Virus record (IMG/VR): IMGVR_UViG_3300037153_000511
Coordinates: 1-36,137 of that record
DNA from: a virus
Length of the DNA stretch: 36,137 bases
Reading direction: 5' to 3' (one strand)
Below are positions 882 through 36,137 of this stretch, piece after piece (position 1 is the first letter of the stretch; every line of letters begins with the position of its first letter). The notes under the pieces were generated by a model. That model had not been told where the DNA came from and did no database searches. It saw only the letters and a list, made by a program, of their open reading frames with translations. Position numbers and translations under genes: made by a program.

Positions 882-1832
882 CTAGCCAAACCGGACCTTA
901 CCGGCGGCCGCGCGCATCGCCTCCAAGTCCGCGTGGCGGTAATGGTCCTGAGTCCGCGGCCGGGCGTGGCGCAAGAGGCGCTGAAGCATCAATTCGCCGA
1001 TTCCCCAGCTCTCCGCGAGAGTCGCGAAACTGTGGCGGAACGCGACGAGGGTCAACCCGGGCACTCCGGCCCGATCCCCCAGGGCGCGGACCTCCTCGAT
1101 GGGCCGGCGGCCGGCGGAGCCATGGAGCCACGGTCCGGACCGGTACCGGTGCGGAAAGAGCCACTCGCACCCCGTCAGGGGGCTCCAGCCGGCGAGGACC
1201 TCCGCCAAGGGGCCGGCGATCGGCAGTCGCGCCGAGCGGGCACGGGTCTTGAGCCGGCGGCGCCCGTGGGAGCGGATCGAGAGGAGTCCTCCAGCCAGAT
1301 CGACGTCGGACGTCCGGAGTCCCAGGACCTCCGTCTTGTGGGCTCCCGTGAATGCCAGGGTATAAACCACGGCGCGGAGCCTCAGAGCCTCCCAGCGGGC
1401 CGATAATGCCTCGGAATCGGCCTGGCGGAGCACCTGGCCGATCTCCGCGGCCGTCCGGTGCCTGGGGAAGGGATCGGAGTCGCTCCGATCCAGAAGGTCG
1501 GCGGGCAGCCACGACGAGACCGGGCGGAAGTCGAAGGGATCGACGAGGTAGGCACGGGACGCGCCGTAGGTACAGACGGCCGAAAGGTGGCGGAGCAAGC
1601 CGTCCACGGTGGCCGGCGCGCGGTCCGGATACTGCCCGATCCAGTCGGCGATGGTGGCCGGGCTGAGATCGGCCGTCCGGGGGCAGAGCCGGGCGAACTC
1701 CGCCAACACCTGACGCGTCTTGTCCCGCGTGCCTCGTCGGCGCATCGGGGGGGCGTACAGCTTCAGGACCTCGTCGGCGAACGCGGTCCAGGGAATCCCC
1801 CGGGACGGGGGGCACGGTTCGAGCACGGGCAT
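882..1832 (-). CDS. int: Divergent tyrosine integrase next to attP
   Basis: A phage tyrosine recombinase of about 316 residues, expected to integrate the genome at tRNA-Phe. The N-terminal core-binding SAM-like part covers roughly residues 14-125 and the catalytic part 126-316. The C-terminal box is clear: R266 in VAFRHSF, H289 in LLRHA and nucleophile Y298 in DHYRH. Two canonical positions differ. The first catalytic Arg (normally TGLR) is H165 in TGAHKTEVLGL, and the His of HxxR is V263. The ATG at 1832 was chosen because extension upstream would translate the attP tRNA sequence. No strong Shine-Dalgarno is visible. The attP core lies 112 bp upstream, as usual for integrase modules. It may be weakened, or may use a variant active site. 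Confidence 0.88.
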   Translation of the reverse strand: MPVLEPCPPSRGIPWTAFADEVLKLYAPPMRRRGTRDKTRQVLAEFARLCPRTADLSPATIADWIGQYPDRAPATVDGLLRHLSAVCTYGASRAYLVDPFDFRPVSSWLPADLLDRSDSDPFPRHRTAAEIGQVLRQADSEALSARWEALRLRAVVYTLAFTGAHKTEVLGLRTSDVDLAGGLLSIRSHGRRRLKTRARSARLPIAGPLAEVLAGWSPLTGCEWLFPHRYRSGPWLHGSAGRRPIEEVRALGDRAGVPGLTLVAFRHSFATLAESWGIGELMLQRLLRHARPRTQDHYRHADLEAMRAAAGKVRFG

Positions 1833-1943
1833 GAACACGGCGCGGGCTCCTCTGCGAGCGGGAGAGGCTCTTGGGCATGACGACGAGGAACCCGGGTTCT
1901 CTGTCCTGATTCTGACACACGATCGACTCCGACCGCGCCGCAC

Positions 1944-1987
1944 ACTGAAAATCCTGGTGTCGTCGGTTCGACTCCGACTCTGCCCAC
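1944..1987 (+). other. attP core: 3' half of a tRNA-Phe(GAA) gene
   Basis: The sequence runs from the anticodon loop (ctGAAaa, 1945-1951) through the 3' anticodon strand, variable loop, T-arm (gtcgg, loop ttcgact, ccgac) and 3' acceptor strand tctgccc, then discriminator a. No matching 5' half lies upstream: the expected gggcaga acceptor strand and D-arm are absent. It is therefore a partial gene, not a functional tRNA. Such 3' tRNA fragments beside an integrase are classic attP cores that restore the host tRNA after insertion. On integration the host 5' half and promoter would be joined to phage sequence to the right of 1987. Confidence 0.85.
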
Positions 1988-2007: not shown

Positions 2008-2083
2008 CCAGCCTCCGGGCTGGATGTCCTGTGGGGCCGGCGGCCGGGGCTTCCGCCAAGAAACGACCCGGCCGCCGGTTTTT
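2008..2083 (+). terminator. Structured element copy 1 with Rho-independent terminator
   Basis: The element starts 21 bp past the tRNA 3' end. A small hairpin (ccagcc/ggctgg with a tccg tetraloop, 2008-2023) is followed by tcctgtgg (2027-2034). Then comes a perfect 12-bp stem (2037-2048 with 2067-2078) and ttttt (2079-2083). The 18-nt loop 2049-2066, gcttccgccaagaaacga, is identical to the loop of the second element at 3371-3388, although the stems are unrelated. After integration it would terminate, or be released with, the host tRNA-Phe transcript. No phage promoter is seen in front of it. Confidence 0.75.
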
Positions 2084-2169
2084 GAATTGCAGCCGACGCG
2101 GCGCGCGGCCGGAAAACGGCGCGCTCAAGGGAGGGAAACGCCTGGAAGCCCGTCCTCCGGTCCCTCTGT

Positions 2170-2220
2170 CCGCGGCGGGGGGCCGACTCGAGGGCCCAAC
2201 CCGCCGCGGGGCCTTTTTTC
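2170..2220 (+). terminator. Second Rho-independent terminator after attP
   Basis: A perfect 10-bp GC stem (2170-2179 with 2200-2209) encloses a loop that can pair further. It is followed by ggcc and a run of six T (2214-2219). With the terminator at 2037-2083 it makes a tandem pair on the plus strand, well placed to insulate the phage from host tRNA-Phe transcription after integration. The 2084-2247 stretch holds no gene that I can support. Confidence 0.65.
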
Positions 2221-2247
2221 TCCCTCTTTCTCAGAAGAAATACGGGT

Positions 2248-2313
2248 CGCGGCACCGTGCGAATGCAACCGCGGCACCGTGCGAATGCAACCGCGGCAGG
2301 ATGCGATAGCATG
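2248..2313. repeat. Iteron-like 22-bp tandem repeats
   Basis: Two exact 22-bp copies (2248-2269 and 2270-2291) begin cgcggcaccg. They are followed by a degenerate third copy starting cgcggcagga at 2292. They lie between the 3' end of the rep-like gene and the integrase, in a gene-free stretch (1988-2481). Candidate roles are replication-initiator iterons or integrase arm-type sites. The sequence alone does not decide between them. Confidence 0.6.
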
Positions 2314-2388
2314 CACTGGACCGATCGACGGTTGTTGGGGCGTCCTCGGTTCTCATGGGTCGGCGGGGAATCGGTCCGGAAATGCGCG

Positions 2389-2409
2389 CACCCCGAACGG
2401 ATCGGGGTG
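2389..2409 (-). terminator. Hairpin downstream of the rep-like gene
   Basis: An 8-bp perfect stem, caccccga/tcggggtg with a 5-nt loop, lies about 73 bp past the stop codon of the rep-like gene. No T-run follows on the minus strand, so termination is uncertain. It could also belong to an origin region together with the adjacent tandem repeats. Confidence 0.35.
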
Positions 2410-2481
2410 GCAAGGTTTCAGCGGCGATGTGCGTTTTCGGGGGGCGCCGGCCTCACTCGGCACAGGCGCGACCGGGGCGTT

Positions 2482-3123
2482 TCAGGCTCCGGAGCCCTGG
2501 GCCGGCACCTCCGGGCCGGCGGGCGTCTCTTCCGGGGCGGCATCGGGCGGAACCGGGCAGCTCGCAAGGTCGCGCTTGATCCGATCGGCCTCGAACCGAT
2601 CCCCGCGGCGACGCTTCTTTTCCGCGAGCCCCTCCATGCGTCCGCGGGATCCGGTCCACCATCCCTTGGTTCTTCTCAGTTCCTCCGCCGCGGCCTGGGG
2701 ATCCGGCTCCGCCTCCGGCGGCGGCGGGCTGGCACGCGGCACCACCGCGGGGACGGGCACCGCGGGGCGGGGCGGGGGCCCGGGCCTGACCGGCTCCGGC
2801 TCCTCCCGGCGGCGACCGGCGAGGCGCTTGATGAAGCTGATGACGCGCCGTCCGCCGGTCCGGATCCGGTCAATCCAGCCGATTTCGTGCTCGAGCGTAT
2901 AAAGTGCCTCCTGCACCGAGCGCTCGCAGTAATCGGACAGCTTCGACAGGACGGCGTCGGTCACCTCGATACCCAGCTCGGTCTTGCCGGCGGGCAGCAG
3001 CTCCAAGAGGCAATCCCACAGCTTCGAGGCGGCCGGATAGATCGACTTGGGCAGGCGCGCCAGCGAATGGGGATGCCCGTGCCAACCCTCTCCGCCGGGG
3101 GCAAACATCGCGGCGGCACTCAT
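2482..3123 (-). CDS. Winged-helix replication-initiator-like protein
   Basis: A 213-residue protein. Residues about 25-100 look like a winged helix-turn-helix: KSIYPAASKLWDCLLELL, then GIEVTDAVLSKLSDYCERSV and a basic wing ending GGRRVISFIKRLAG. The remainder is a Pro-rich linker (about 105-145) and a charged helical tail. The layout recalls HTH-domain replication proteins of small plasmids and phages, but no catalytic motif is visible, so initiator is an inference. Shine-Dalgarno aggggg precedes the ATG at 3123. The start overlaps the stop of the upstream 72-aa gene (ATGA), implying translational coupling. Tandem repeats at 2248-2313 downstream and the putative antisense RNA upstream support a replication role. 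It could instead be a transcriptional regulator. Confidence 0.65.
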   Translation of the reverse strand: MSAAAMFAPGGEGWHGHPHSLARLPKSIYPAASKLWDCLLELLPAGKTELGIEVTDAVLSKLSDYCERSVQEALYTLEHEIGWIDRIRTGGRRVISFIKRLAGRRREEPEPVRPGPPPRPAVPVPAVVPRASPPPPEAEPDPQAAAEELRRTKGWWTGSRGRMEGLAEKKRRRGDRFEADRIKRDLASCPVPPDAAPEETPAGPEVPAQGSGA

Positions 3124-3338
3124 GGCGCGTCCCCCCTTCCGCGGTCCGGGGCCTGGGGCGCCGACTCGCTCCAGTCGCGCCGGTCGAAGATCGGTAAGTA
3201 GAGCTGGATCGTGCGGGGATCGCGGCGGGGCCGATCGGTAGCGGACGAATTGATCCGACCGACCGTTGACTCGGGGACGGGTCGCTTGTAGTCTATGCTT
3301 GTACAGGGATCGGATCCCTCGGCTGAGTCGTGTTTCAC
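3120..3338 (-). CDS. Leader gene coupled to the rep-like gene
   Basis: A 72-residue protein with a GTG start at 3338. No family is recognised. It is polar and charged, with no membrane segment (a TIQLYLPIFDRRDW stretch lies in the second half). Its TGA overlaps the ATG of the rep-like gene as ATGA, so ribosomes finishing here could restart on rep. That arrangement matches leader genes such as tap or repY in antisense-controlled plasmid replicons, although those are much shorter. The GTG start region is overlapped by the putative antisense RNA on the other strand. I am moderately sure it is translated; the peptide itself may have no function. Confidence 0.5.
   Translation of the reverse strand: MKHDSAEGSDPCTSIDYKRPVPESTVGRINSSATDRPRRDPRTIQLYLPIFDRRDWSESAPQAPDRGRGDAP
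3266..3294 (+). promoter_or_regulatory. Promoter for a putative antisense RNA
   Basis: -35 TTGACT at 3266-3271, a 17-bp spacer, and -10 TAGTCT at 3289-3294, giving a start near 3301. It fires rightward, against the rep-like operon, and no plus-strand gene follows. The TAGnnT form of the -10 matches the other promoters found in this genome. Confidence 0.5.
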
Positions 3339-3415
3339 GGTCTCAGTCCTGTGGTAGGGCCGGGATCAGTGCTTCCGCCAAGAAACGAGCTGATCAAGGC
3401 TCAACAAGTTTTCTG
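3298..3415 (+). ncRNA. Putative antisense copy-control RNA (structured element copy 2)
   Basis: A compact series of helices follows the promoter. They are: closing pairs cttgt (3298-3302) with acaag (3404-3408); a hairpin gggat/atccc (3306-3318); a hairpin ctgag/ctcag with inner pairs (3323-3346); tcctgtgg (3347-3354); and a hairpin gatcag/ctgatc (3364-3369 with 3390-3395) presenting loop gcttccgccaagaaacga. A short ttttct follows. The RNA is antisense to the 5' end of the leader gene and to the mRNA leader of the rep-like gene. In the mRNA the same loop reads CUUGGCGG, a YUNR U-turn like the UUGGCG of IncI-type replicons. Existence of the RNA is inferred from promoter, structure and loop conservation only. 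Confidence 0.5.
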
Positions 3416-3451
3416 GTTTGACGGATCAACATCCTTCAAGTCAGGGCACGT

Positions 3452-3482
3452 GGACCGGTCGGGCACTGTGCCTGACCGGTCC
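3452..3482 (-). terminator. Strong hairpin between minus-strand genes
   Basis: A 14-bp stem (ggaccggtc with gaccggtcc, extended by gggca/tgcct) with a 3-nt loop lies about 110 bp past the stop of the small zinc-protein gene and before the rep leader. There is no clear T-run. It could terminate or attenuate read-through from the upstream accessory operon into the rep-like module, or protect a processed 3' end. Confidence 0.4.
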
Positions 3483-3592
3483 TCGTCCTTTACGCGGTTA
3501 TACCCGCGCGCCGGCTCCTTTCGAATCCTCCGCCAGCCAATTCGAACGGATTTCGCGCCAAAGCTGGCTGATCCTTGCCACGTGGCGGACCC

Positions 3593-4065: not shown

Positions 4066-4628
4066 CGCGGCACCTCGCTCCCCTGGGCGACGGCCGGGGC
4101 CGATCCCCAGTGCGTGGGGCGATCGGCCTGGATCGCCAGCTCGCGGACGACGTCGGCGACCTGGGGCCGGCTCCAGTCCACGATCTTGCGGGGGTAGCCG
4201 CGGTCCGCGCCCATGTTCGAGACGCGGTCAAACTCGTCGTGGTCCTTGGCCCAACCGAAGAGGGCCTTGCCCGTCCGGGGCGGCTCCCCCTCGAACCGGG
4301 GCGGGGGCTCCGGGCGCCGCGACCGCGCCGGCCTGGTCGTGGTCGTGGTCGTGGTCGGGGCGGCCGGGGGCCTCGACCGGGCCTCTCGAGCCGGCTCCGG
4401 CTCGGGAGCCAGTCCGGGCCGTCCGCGTGCGTCCGGGGCCGTCCGGGGCCGTCCGGGGCCGTCTGGAGGCGTCCGACCGGCCGGGACCGGGATCGGTCCG
4501 ACCGTCGTCCGGACGTCGGCGGCCGTCGGGGGGCCGCGCAATGCCTCGTCGCACTCCACGACGAGGGCAAGGATTTTCGCGGTCAGCGCGGGGGGCAATT
4601 TCTCGGTGTCAAACGTGATTCGGGGCAT
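4062..4628 (-). CDS. Hypothetical protein with low-complexity middle, 188 aa
   Basis: Two conserved-looking ends flank a disordered middle. Residues 1-45 (ITFDTEKLPPALTAKILALV) form a helical head. Residues about 46-120 are Pro/Arg-rich, with a run of seven threonines. Residues 120-188 (KALFGWAKDHDEFD, MGADRGYPRKIVDWSRPQV) look folded. The middle is built from DNA tandem repeats: gtccggggcc units at 4431-4460 and ggtcgt units near 4335-4360. The start at 4628 lies inside the 3' end of the preceding gene (20-bp overlap). No function is recognised. The repeats suggest a length-variable linker. Confidence 0.65.
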   Translation of the reverse strand: MPRITFDTEKLPPALTAKILALVVECDEALRGPPTAADVRTTVGPIPVPAGRTPPDGPGRPRTAPDARGRPGLAPEPEPAREARSRPPAAPTTTTTTTRPARSRRPEPPPRFEGEPPRTGKALFGWAKDHDEFDRVSNMGADRGYPRKIVDWSRPQVADVVRELAIQADRPTHWGSAPAVAQGSEVPR

Positions 4629-5247
4629 GGTGGTTTCCTGGGGTTCGGGTTCGGGTTCGGGTTCGGGCCGCGATCAGCTCCCACGAAAGGACCGCCCGCA
4701 CCTCCGCCGCGCATTCGGCGTGGGCGCGCTGTGCGTCCGCGGCGACCGCGGCGACCGCGGCGACCGCGGCGACCGCGGCGGCGGCGGCCGCGAAGGGATC
4801 CGGATCGTAGGCGGCGGCGGCGGCGAATGCGGCGGCGGCGAATGCGGCGGCGGCGTCCGCGGCCAGGGCGGCGTCCGCGGCGGCGGCGTCCGCGGCGGCG
4901 GCGTCCGCGGCGGCGGCGTCCGCGGCCAGGGCGGCGTCCGCGGCGGCGGCGCACACCTCGGCGATCGAGGCGTCGCCGCGCGCCCAGGACTCGGCGATCT
5001 CGATTGCGCGCCGGGGACGCGGATCGCACGCCGGGACCCGCCGGAGCGCCAGCCGCGCGCACCGGCACGCGGCCGTCACCACCAGACGGCGGTCCACGCC
5101 CAGGCGCGAGGCGAGCCAGAGCATCCAGTCCCCACGCGGGCAGGAGACCCACGCCTCGCGTGGGTCGCCGTGATCCCGGGCCCATTCGAGCGCCTCGGCG
5201 CAGGGGCCCAAACGTGACAGCAGATCAATCCAGTCGACCATCGTCAT
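4609..5247 (-). CDS. Ala-repeat protein with Imm5-like N-terminus
   Basis: A 212-residue protein. Residues 1-90 resemble the Imm5-like putative immunity family, with ALEWARDHGDPREAWVSCPRGDWMLWLASRLGVDRRLVV and a following helix RPRRAIEIAESWARG. Residues about 95-170 are almost pure AADAAA/AAFAAA repeats encoded by GC-rich tandem repeats (4738-4950). The extreme C-terminus RTRTRTRT comes from a gggttc repeat and may be noise. The family is frequent in phages and planctomycetes, and despite its name has no proven immunity function that I know of. Predicted cytoplasmic and largely helical. Repeat number probably varies between relatives. Confidence 0.75.
   Translation of the reverse strand: MTMVDWIDLLSRLGPCAEALEWARDHGDPREAWVSCPRGDWMLWLASRLGVDRRLVVTAACRCARLALRRVPACDPRPRRAIEIAESWARGDASIAEVCAAAADAALAADAAAADAAAADAAAADAALAADAAAAFAAAAFAAAAAYDPDPFAAAAAAVAAVAAVAAVAADAQRAHAECAAEVRAVLSWELIAARTRTRTRTPGNHHAPNHV
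4640..4667. repeat. gggttc hexamer tandem repeat
   Basis: Four and a half copies of gggttc lie at the 3' end of the Ala-repeat gene, just before the start codon of the next gene at 4628. On the minus strand this places gaaccc repeats in the ribosome-binding region of that gene. Changes in copy number could therefore alter both the tail of one protein and the translation of the next. Confidence 0.8.
4738..4950. repeat. GC-rich nested tandem repeats in the Ala-repeat gene
   Basis: Successive blocks of gcgaccgcg nonamers (4738-4790), gcggcggcgaat units (about 4811-4850) and gcgtccgcggcggcg 15-mers (to 4950) encode the alanine-rich repeats. All units are multiples of three, so expansion and contraction keep the reading frame. 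Confidence 0.85.
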
Positions 5248-9898: not shown

Positions 9899-10804
9899 TC
9901 AATCGTCCAGCGCTTCGACGGCGCGCGCCAGGTCCGCGCCCTTGGGCGTCAAGTAGCCTTGCGTGGTCTTGACGTCGCTGTGTCCCAGGTGGGCGGCGAC
10001 GTCGGTGATCGGCACCCCGCGGTCCAGTAACCTCCGGGCGCACGTGTGGCGGAGCACGTGGGCCGAGAAGTCCTCCAGTCCCACGCGCTTGCCGACCCTC
10101 GCGGCGCGGCCGTAACGCTCGATGATGTCCTGAATCCCCCGGATCGACAGCCTGCCGCGCTGACCGGTCAAGATCGGCCCTTGCTTGCTCCCTCCTCCCC
10201 AGTCCAAGAGGGCATGCCGGAGGGTCTTGGACAGCTTGACGGCGCGCTCCTTGGCGCCTTTCCCCTTCCGCACGACCAGCTCGCCCTTCCGCTCGCTGAT
10301 GGAGACGTCCTCCCAGTCGAGCGCCTGCATCTCCGAGACGCGCAACCCGCCGTGCAGCCCCAGGTAGAGGATCGCCACGTCCCGGGCGCTGTTGGCCGTC
10401 TCGACGGCCGCCACGAGGGCGCGCTCCTCGGTTGGCTCCAGCCACCGGGGATCGGGCGGTCCCTGGCGCTTCTGGGGCTTGGGCGGCTCGAAGCGGACAC
10501 CCAGATCCCGGGCCTGCGCCCACCGGAAGAACGAGCGCAGGGCCGCCAGCTTGCGGTTGACCGTCGGCAGCTCGGCGCGCCCTCCGGCTCGACCGCCCGA
10601 GGCCTCGAGGGCCCCTTTCCAGTCCAGGACATCGCGCTTGGACAGACTGCCCAAGGCCGGCTCCTCGTCGTGGCGGTCCGCGTACCACCGCGCGAAGTGC
10701 GCGAGTTCATCGCGATACCCGCGGATCGTGTGCCCCGAGCGCTCCGATTCCTCGAGGGAAACCAGGAACTCCGCCACCAATGCCGACCATGCCTCATGCG
10801 CCAT
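9899..10804 (-). CDS. XerC/D-like tyrosine recombinase with intact active site
   Basis: A 301-residue recombinase. The N-terminal SAM-like core-binding domain covers residues about 4-105 and the catalytic domain about 115-301. All catalytic residues are visible: R155 in GGLRVSEM, a beta-hairpin Lys in RKGKGAKER (about K182), H249 and R252 in HVLRH, H275 in LGHSDVKTT, and nucleophile Y284. It may be the working integrase, an excision partner, or a resolvase of genome multimers. The ATG at 10804 is used; a GTG at 10831 is possible. It is not beside the tRNA attP, unlike the divergent enzyme at 882-1832. Copies of ggtgcatacaa flank its upstream region. Confidence 0.9.
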   Translation of the reverse strand: MAHEAWSALVAEFLVSLEESERSGHTIRGYRDELAHFARWYADRHDEEPALGSLSKRDVLDWKGALEASGGRAGGRAELPTVNRKLAALRSFFRWAQARDLGVRFEPPKPQKRQGPPDPRWLEPTEERALVAAVETANSARDVAILYLGLHGGLRVSEMQALDWEDVSISERKGELVVRKGKGAKERAVKLSKTLRHALLDWGGGSKQGPILTGQRGRLSIRGIQDIIERYGRAARVGKRVGLEDFSAHVLRHTCARRLLDRGVPITDVAAHLGHSDVKTTQGYLTPKGADLARAVEALDD

Positions 10805-11564: not shown

Positions 11565-11870
11565 ATGGTCCACCGCGACGCCTCGGCAGTCGGAGCCCTC
11601 AACTACGTCGTCAGTGGCGTGGCGACCGTGGGCGCCGTCTTAGGCGGCCTGAAAGCCGACTCCTTGACCGCGTGGGCCGGCGCGCTGGTGGCGATCCTGG
11701 CGGCCGTCTGGGGCCTCTGGCGCGACCAGCGGCGGCGCGACCGGGAGGAAGCCCGGACCGACGCGGTGCTCGACCTGATCACCCAGGCCAACGAAACCGC
11801 CATCAAGGCCGGTCAGCCGGCGCCCTATCCCGATTACCTCCCCGTCCCCTCGAGAGCTCCCGCCAAGTGA
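11565..11870 (+). CDS. Holin-like small membrane protein
   Basis: A 101-residue protein with two hydrophobic helices: residues about 8-28, AVGALNYVVSGVATVGAVLGGL, and 34-52, LTAWAGALVAILAAVWGLW. A charged cytoplasmic-type tail (RDQRRRDREEARTD) follows. Size and topology fit class II holins, but no endolysin gene was recognised nearby, so holin is a guess. Its stop overlaps the GTG start of the ParB-DUF4417 gene (GTGA). The late-operon position before terminase would be unusual but not unique for a lysis gene. Confidence 0.6.
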   Translation: MVHRDASAVGALNYVVSGVATVGAVLGGLKADSLTAWAGALVAILAAVWGLWRDQRRRDREEARTDAVLDLITQANETAIKAGQPAPYPDYLPVPSRAPAK

Positions 11871-12994
11871 CGAACCCCGCAAGCGAGGGTCCTCCCCTCC
11901 GGCTGGAATACCGGCTCGCCTCCGAGTTGATGACCAACCCGGCGAACTGGAAGGCGCACCCGTCGGGCCAGCGCGCCACGATCTCGGAGCTCCTCGACCG
12001 TGTGGGGTGGGCCGGCGCCGTCCTGGTGAACGAGCGCACGGGGCGCATGCTCGACGGCCACGCGCGGCGCGAGATCGCCTTGGCGGGTAACCAGGCGGTC
12101 CCCGTCCTGATCGGCGATTGGAGCGAGGAACAAGAGCGGCTCATCCTGGCGGGCCTGGACCCCTCCGGCTGGACGGCCATTGCCGACCGGCGGAAGTACG
12201 AGGCGCTCTTAAGCGGCGTCCCCGAGATCAAGGGCGACGAGTTCAAGGAACTGCTCGCGGCCGTCAAGGACTCGAGCCAGCTCTTGAATGAGTCCGGCGA
12301 ACCGGAGGAAGCCGACGGCGCGAAGCGAACCGGCGACGACTCCGACGAAATCACGATCGCCCTGGATTCGATCTGGCCCACCGATAACGCGTACTCGGTC
12401 CCGTCCCTGCTCCCGGAATTGCAAGCCGACCAGGTGGCCGGACCCGTGACGACCTGGGGCACCCAGGGCGCGCGGCGTCCCATGCGTGGCACCTGGCACT
12501 TTTACACCGCGGACTCGAAGTTTGACCCCCTCTGGCGGCGGCCGCACCGCGTGCTGTACTCGCGGCCGGCGGCCGTCTGCGAGTGCAACTTTTCCACGAT
12601 CGAGCAAAGCCCGTTCGCATTCTCACTCTGGAATATCTACAAGAAAAGATGGCTCGCCCGGTACTGGCAAGCCGCGGGCCTGCGCGTGTTTGTCGATCTC
12701 AACGTCGACGCAGACCTGAACGCCCCCAGTGCCGCCGTGGGCGGGGCGCGGCCCAACCTGCTGGGCGTGCCTGCCGGCTGGGCGGCCTACTCCAGTCGGG
12801 CGCACGCCGACCGGCCGGAGAACCTGCTCCCCGAGTGGGAGACGGCGCGGGAGCACTCGGGCAAGGAACACCCCCTTTTCCTCGTCGTGGGCGGCGGCCG
12901 TCGGGTCAAACAGCTCGCGCAAGAACACGGATGGGTGTGGGTCCCGGAGCAGATCCAGCAAGCGCACGGCGAGCCGAAGGACGGTGACGACTAA
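11867..12994 (+). CDS. ParB-like N-terminal domain fused to DUF4417
   Basis: A 375-residue protein. Residues about 14-110 form a ParB/Srx-like domain: LASELMTNPANWKAHP, VLVNERTGRMLDGHARREIALA with the DGHARR motif at 63-68, and a VPVLIGDWSEEQERL strand-helix. Residues about 160-365 match DUF4417, with CECNFSTIEQSPFAFSLWNIYKKRWLARYWQAAGLRVFVDLN and a later LFLVVGGGRRVKQLAQEHGW. DUF4417 is a phage- and plasmid-associated family of unknown biochemistry; ParB-like folds include CTPases and nucleases. It is coupled to its neighbours by GTGA and TAATG overlaps. A role in DNA packaging or early modification is inferred only from its place before terminase. Confidence 0.8.
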   Translation: MTNPASEGPPLRLEYRLASELMTNPANWKAHPSGQRATISELLDRVGWAGAVLVNERTGRMLDGHARREIALAGNQAVPVLIGDWSEEQERLILAGLDPSGWTAIADRRKYEALLSGVPEIKGDEFKELLAAVKDSSQLLNESGEPEEADGAKRTGDDSDEITIALDSIWPTDNAYSVPSLLPELQADQVAGPVTTWGTQGARRPMRGTWHFYTADSKFDPLWRRPHRVLYSRPAAVCECNFSTIEQSPFAFSLWNIYKKRWLARYWQAAGLRVFVDLNVDADLNAPSAAVGGARPNLLGVPAGWAAYSSRAHADRPENLLPEWETAREHSGKEHPLFLVVGGGRRVKQLAQEHGWVWVPEQIQQAHGEPKDGDD

Positions 12995-35740: not shown

Positions 35741-36004
35741 ATGACACCCCGGGCCGATGTCGACGCGGCCCTCGAGGCCCTCTCCGCCGCGCGGCACCCC
35801 CACCTCGTGCGCTACCGGGAGCTGACGGCCGACTCCAACCCCGATCCGGAGTCGCGCGAGGGATACCGGCAGCTCGTCGTCTCGATGGTGGCCGGGGGCT
35901 CCCTCGGTGGGACGTTCGTCCCGAAACGCCACGTGGCCGTTTCCTACCACGTGACCGACCCGGCGAAGGCGGCCAAGCCGTGCGGGGGCTGTCCGGGCCT
36001 CTGA
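35741..36004 (+). CDS. Hypothetical protein, last late gene, 87 aa
   Basis: A small soluble protein. It has an N-terminal helix region (DAALEALSAARHPHLVRYRELTAD), a central GYRQLVVSMVAGGSLGGTFVPKRHVAVSYHV, and ends in a Cys motif CGGCPGL. The ATG at 35741 has aaggcgagg upstream; the longer reading from 35663 is out of place. Its last codons lie inside the terminal repeat, so in the circular molecule the stop equals bases 7-9. Function unknown; it may belong to the tail cassette. Confidence 0.55.
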   Translation: MTPRADVDAALEALSAARHPHLVRYRELTADSNPDPESREGYRQLVVSMVAGGSLGGTFVPKRHVAVSYHVTDPAKAAKPCGGCPGL

Positions 36005-36137
36005 CGGGGCCTGTCGCGGACCCGGGCCGGATTCCGAGAGGGGCCTTGCCGATCGCCGTTTCCGGGATACGGACCATGACTTGATGGATTTTTTCCACAT
36101 TCCGGACACAAACATCCAGAAGTGGCGTTTCATCCGT
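35996..36137. repeat. Right copy of 142-bp terminal direct repeat
   Basis: Matches bases 1-142 with one substitution (g at 36122). It contains the end of the last gene and then the gene-free interval that continues, in the circular form, into 143-290. Confidence 0.9.

Follow-up and report, generated by a model that had tools for sequence, protein, structure and literature searches.

Two phage hairpins with an identical 18-nt loop, beside a tRNA-Phe attachment half and opposite an operon start, look like RNA control elements

Why would a phage present the same 18-nt loop on two hairpins, one placed behind the tRNA-Phe half of its presumed attachment site and the other opposite the start of a small operon? 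We followed this question in a viral record of 36,137 nucleotides (IMGVR_UViG_3300037153_000511), analysed at its full length and called here the window. Because the ends of the record repeat (1-142 = 35996-36137, with a single mismatch), the window closes on itself, giving a circle of about 35,995 bp; the lone mismatch could be a variant or an error. The genome has a GC content of 68% and encodes two tyrosine recombinases, integrases A and B. The nearest plasmid homologue of integrase B (38%) is carried by pOJF2_2 of the planctomycete Aquisphaera giovannonii, which is consistent with the host of the phage probably being planctomycete bacteria. Elsewhere in the window, an ORF on the - strand (4609-5247) contains a long alanine-rich repeat (AADAA...) that derives from GC-rich DNA repeats of 9-15 bp, and a GDSL/SGNH lipase-like gene (PF13472; 7031-7741, +) lies in the early region, beside an Arc-like regulator. 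The features that bear on the question are collected in Table 1.

Table 1. Coordinates, strand and basis of the features discussed in the text.
Feature	Position	Strand	Basis or remark
Integrase A, tyrosine integrase	882-1838	-	PHROG 1, E 1e-30; PF00589
tRNA-Phe 3' half, anticodon loop to discriminator base, presumed attP core	1945-1986	+	ARAGORN chimera
Upstream hairpin of copy 1, CCAGCC-loop-GGCTGG	2008-2025	+	RNA fold
9-mer GTCCTGTGG of copy 1	2026-2034	+	Occurs only at 2026 and 3346
Copy 1 hairpin, candidate intrinsic terminator	2035-2083	+	Loop 2049-2066, TTTTT tail
Second terminator-like hairpin, T6 tail	2169-2219	+	RNA fold, -36.4 kcal/mol
22-bp direct repeats, 2.7 tandem copies	2248-2306	+	Iteron-like or integrase arm-type sites
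213-aa protein, formerly "rep-like" gene	2482-3123	-	N-terminal half: good coding signal
72-aa ORF, GTG start (3338)	3120-3338	-	Coding signal weak
Weak promoter-like site, antisense strand	3266-3294	+	8/12 consensus bases
Upstream hairpin of copy 2, holds GTG start on opposite strand	3321-3345	+	RNA fold
9-mer GTCCTGTGG of copy 2	3346-3354	+	Complement CCACAGGAC
Copy 2 hairpin	3356-3402	+	RNA fold; loop 3371-3388
Strong near-palindromic hairpin, weak T tail	3450-3485	+	Fold z -5.5 on +, -4.6 on -
Integrase B, second tyrosine recombinase	9899-10777	-	PF00589 match much stronger than that of integrase A

The locus had been singled out by a sequence-only reading, made without database searches, as two hairpins with an identical loop, each preceded by TCCTGTGG and another hairpin. 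We found the loop, GCTTCCGCCAAGAAACGA, on the + strand at both places, with no further match in the window at up to two mismatches; a third candidate (11856-11873) was rejected, as it has three mismatches and lies inside a gene. The preceding motif was likewise recovered, since GTCCTGTGG starts at 2026 and 3346, its only two occurrences in the window, with a hairpin upstream of each. The odds of a bare repeat of this length, which had been put at about 1 in 100, proved to be set too low: 731 of 4635 simulated genomes (16%; third-order Markov) have a direct repeat of at least 18 nt, and the window contains four other pairs of 18-mers, none of them noteworthy. The expectation that chance becomes far smaller when both copies have to be loops was borne out, with perfect stems of at least 6 bp around both in 1 of the 4635 simulations and of at least 5 bp in 3. 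Upstream of the loop, the copies also have GTCCTGTG and GGGCCGG in common, in the same order, and the score of this similarity beyond the 18-mer was equalled in 22 of 2000 shuffles. The frequency of 18-mer repeats in simulated genomes and the other pairs in the window are what a chance resemblance in a GC-rich genome has in its favour; against it stand the enclosing stems and the fact that the copies also share, at corresponding distances, the unique 9-mer and GGCCGG, and we regard it as very improbable.

The stems themselves had been described as unrelated. They are indeed copy-specific: copy 1 has the 12-bp stem that had been claimed, and it is perfect (2037-2048/2067-2078; 14 positions counting G-U), and copy 2 has the claimed 6 bp of GATCAG/CTGATC plus an outer GGGCC/GGCTC helix. 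When aligned flush to the loop, however, they follow a common register of 14 positions, in which five pairs are the same, six differ by two-sided changes, one by a one-sided change and two do not form in copy 2; this covariation is limited as evidence because it comes from only two sequences, each of which was spotted as a hairpin. Over the 28 cells of this alignment, pairing reaches 92.9% on the + strand and 78.6% on the - strand, where it is lower because several of the pairs are G-U on the + strand. The higher pairing, with its G-U pairs, suggests that it is the + strand RNA that folds. In the RNA fold of the - strand, the loop can close on itself into a small hairpin tipped by UGGC. We take the two sites to be, probably, copies of a single + strand RNA hairpin element that have since diverged, and the pair, which is unusual, looks like real RNA control elements.

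Copy 1 lies, as had been noted, just 3' of the tRNA-Phe half of the attachment site. Joined to a generic 5' half, the segment CTGAAAATCCTGGTGTCGTCGGTTCGACTCCGACTCTGCCCA is recognised by ARAGORN as tRNA-Phe(gaa), and no complete tRNA was found in the window. Copy 1 lies about 50-60 bp past this core, and integrase A lies on the opposite side of it. We assigned the start of integrase A to GTG 1838, which is preceded by AGAGGAG; an upstream extension to a GTG at about 2000 was rejected, given its poor coding signal and the good start at 1838. After integration, the complete host tRNA-Phe would be transcribed directly into copy 1, which alone in the window combines a perfect stem of at least 10 bp with a T-rich tail. 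Since its stem is followed by TTTTT and then by the T6 hairpin, just inside the tRNA end, the simplest role of copy 1 would be that of an intrinsic terminator or insulator behind the host tRNA in the lysogen. The 22-bp direct repeats are situated between copy 1 and the 213-aa gene; they could be iterons, in which case they would favour a replication role for that gene, or alternatively integrase arm sites.

Copy 2 had been presented as antisense to the leader of a translationally coupled, rep-like gene. The first part of this description is supported by the anatomy: copy 2 runs antisense to the leader at the 5' end of two ORFs that overlap in ATGA (3120-3123), where the stop of the 72-aa ORF meets the ATG of the 213-aa ORF. 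The complement of the 9-mer, CCACAGGAC, contains AGGA, the putative Shine-Dalgarno sequence of the 72-aa ORF, 8 nt before its GTG. The second part found no support. The 213-aa protein had no match in Pfam, PHROG, PDB sequences or Foldseek, nor by tblastn of plasmids and phages, so that "rep-like" can only be a presumption; the N-terminus appeared winged-helix-like when judged by eye, and its AlphaFold model was of low confidence, too poor to use. For the promoter of its own that had also been ascribed to copy 2, the candidate is TTGACT-17-TAGTCT, a weak site that agrees with the consensus at 8 of 12 bases and is not detected by a 9-of-12 scan. The very stable near-palindromic hairpin at 3450-3485, which separates copy 2 from the - strand genes that come next, is a possible end of a copy-2 transcript.

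Relatives of the element were sought in several collections. Rfam covariance models gave no match at the gathering score, and below it only matches at chance level. Viral contigs contained 38 exact 15-mer matches, attributable to chance, none of them with a matching stem or linker, and gapped patterns of the element at high stringency found nothing in the viral and genome collections. We also discarded 81 loose pattern matches as chance, given that their best stems, of 7 bp in L060 and of 6 bp in the L058 group, lie inside long ORFs. Searched by BLASTN against phages and plasmids, the element returned tRNA matches only, and the tRNA-Phe half used as a host probe gave no match, the probe with the CTCC flank included being too strict. 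Using the 213-aa protein, integrase A and the terminase as queries, we recovered one distant virus, G001 (terminase 35%), which has structural genes in common with the phage (22-36% identity) and lacks both an integrase and the hairpin element.

What, then, could the pair do? In the explanation that we consider best, and that we put forward tentatively, as possible rather than probable, the pair is a duplicated antisense-type hairpin, with copy 2 over an operon start and copy 1 serving as a terminator whose trailer could pair in trans. The element would consist of a single-stranded tail, GUCCUGUGG, followed by the 14-position stem and the invariant loop. Copy 2 would act in cis as an antisense element, lying over both the leader and the ribosome-binding site of the small leftward 72-aa/213-aa operon, with a design like that of plasmid antisense RNAs, the tail facing the Shine-Dalgarno sequence and the loop starting the pairing. 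In the lysogen, copy 1 would form the end of the host tRNA-Phe transcript, acting as intrinsic terminator and insulator, and the tRNA trailer of about 100 nt that includes it could bind the copy-2 leader in trans, reducing translation of the operon during integration. Such binding is conceivable because the loop and the anti-Shine-Dalgarno tail are exactly what copy 1 has preserved; indeed, the common segments (18-nt loop, anti-Shine-Dalgarno 9-mer and GGCCGG) are those that a trans-acting copy 1 would need. Among all windows of the genome, the loop is predicted to pair best with the copy-2 leader (-34.7 kcal/mol), the best value outside both copies being -27.9. The duplex energy of the whole of copy 1 with that leader was unexceptional (rank index 10 of 3608), since copy 1 is so GC-rich that whole-hairpin pairing is unspecific. 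At copy 1, the complement of the tail is not followed by a start codon at Shine-Dalgarno distance, so that local translation does not account for the conservation of the tail at this place. What the window shows directly is the sequence, the predicted pairing, the common segments, their location and the circular genome; we infer that both copies would be transcribed and that the pairing would take place in cells and affect translation, and likewise the role of the target protein. The fuller proposal of the sequence-only reading goes beyond this: integration would arm the repressor, as the host tRNA promoter would supply the copy-1 trailer to the leader of a replication operon, and excision would cut off this supply and release replication. 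In this complete form we find it quite unlikely.

A different view is that both copies are cis-acting RNA elements, of either strand, read by the same phage or host factor, a protein or RNA polymerase, in the manner of putL/putR or nut sites, and that they set the transcription or translation of two units with no mutual pairing. The hairpin-linker-hairpin anatomy seen here is shared by the twin two-stem-loop putL and putR of HK022 (PMC9378689), a common linker and loop with variable stems is the pattern expected from recognition by a protein or polymerase, and both copies lie upstream of - strand genes (integrase A and the 72-aa ORF). However, neither copy is placed just downstream of a recognised promoter, no + strand phage operon follows either of them, the T5 end of copy 1 is the opposite of what antitermination calls for, and pairing is poorer on the - strand; taken together, this leaves the cis-acting view rather doubtful. 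We also judge it unlikely that the pair is the passive product of one local duplication, in which copy 1 would be an ordinary terminator or insulator against tRNA-Phe read-through, copy 2 an ordinary antisense or leader hairpin, and the interaction between them lost. The strong + strand hairpin with TTTTT and the second one with T6, just inside the tRNA end, are in keeping with it, and one end of Tn916 bears an insulating terminator of this kind (PMC11658703); but under this view the stems should not stay paired while the loop and tail remain identical, and a simple terminator has no need of a fixed 18-nt loop.

The conserved stretches might instead act as DNA, the inverted repeats being an operator, an integrase or excisionase arm site, an origin element or a recombination site with a common centre. 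The distance of copy 1 from the att core (60 bp), the iteron- or arm-type repeats near by and the two tyrosine recombinases agree with this, although copy 2 lies 1.3 kb away, and DNA sites leave unexplained that paired positions change together and that G-U pairs fall on one strand. We consider this improbable. If the antisense explanation with pairing in trans were true, the host tRNA promoter would read whether the prophage sits in the chromosome or has left it, and an RNA would relay this to the operon, making a repressor protein unnecessary. Antisense control of the plasmid type would be joined to site-specific integration, and a use would be shown for the sequence found behind the tRNA attachment sites of phages. 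Even the more modest reading, a duplicated structured RNA in phages whose regulation has scarcely been studied, would offer a concrete target for RNA sequencing.

Several known systems resemble parts of this arrangement. In the CI RNA immunity of phage P4, a small RNA made by the prophage from its own operon acts on the replication genes of the element; having an operon of its own distinguishes it from copy 1. The 3'ETS-leuZ, a stable RNA processed out of a tRNA transcript, acts as a sponge that binds small RNAs and has no tie to integration; its likeness to copy 1 would lie in being released from such a transcript and pairing with other RNAs. In Tn916, expression is tied to excision, and the terminator T1 with canT, located just inside the element, blocks the expression of the replication genes from host transcripts while the element is integrated (PMC11658703). 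Copy 1 is similar as a candidate intrinsic terminator inside the end that faces host transcription; in contrast, T1 acts in cis, by termination and antitermination, rather than through an RNA that base-pairs in trans. The HK022 RNAs putL and putR are paralogues of about 70 nt, with two stem-loops each and shared sequence, that promote read-through downstream of early promoters (PMC9378689). The window also has two similar two-hairpin elements, for which the scan at 9 of 12 found no promoter, and copy 1 differs from the put RNAs in its terminator-like T5 tail.

The closest parallels come from plasmids. RNAII of pMV158, encoded opposite its own target, has a single-stranded 5' tail against the rep mRNA, a hairpin (8-bp stem, 6-nt loop) and a U-rich end, and blocks translation (PMC4485353). 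Copy 1 matches it in architecture only (GTCCTGTGG, stem-loop, TTTTT) and, without a promoter of its own, would depend on the host tRNA. In the I-complex plasmids (IncI/IncB/IncK), where stem-loop I controls rep, the antisense hairpin RNAI covers the leader of a short ORF overlapping the gene after it, and the target-sense loop holds 5'-UUGGCG-3', the pairing of the loops being the proposed first contact (PMC10724649). A likeness to these IncI/IncB-type systems had been suggested, and it holds for the target loop: on the - strand the loop reads UCGUUUCUUGGCGGAAGC and contains UUGGCG, of which only UGGC is left unpaired in the - strand fold. It does not extend to the pseudoknot partner or the Rep family. 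No CGCCAA partner, which the I-complex plasmids have shortly before the rep start, is present in the copy-2 leader, the nearest on the - strand being at 127 and 9380, while CGCCA alone spans the ATG at 3123; no RepA/RepZ-type initiator was found downstream of copy 2 in Pfam, PHROGs, PDB, by fold or by tblastn of plasmids and phages. The ATGA overlap of a short ORF with the next gene is alike, but the coding signal of the 72-aa ORF is weak, and the phage further differs in its second copy, placed in trans at the att site, in the 18-nt length of its loop and in its unrelated host group. By these tests the pair does not belong to the I-complex family; it would work, at most, like a plasmid antisense RNA.
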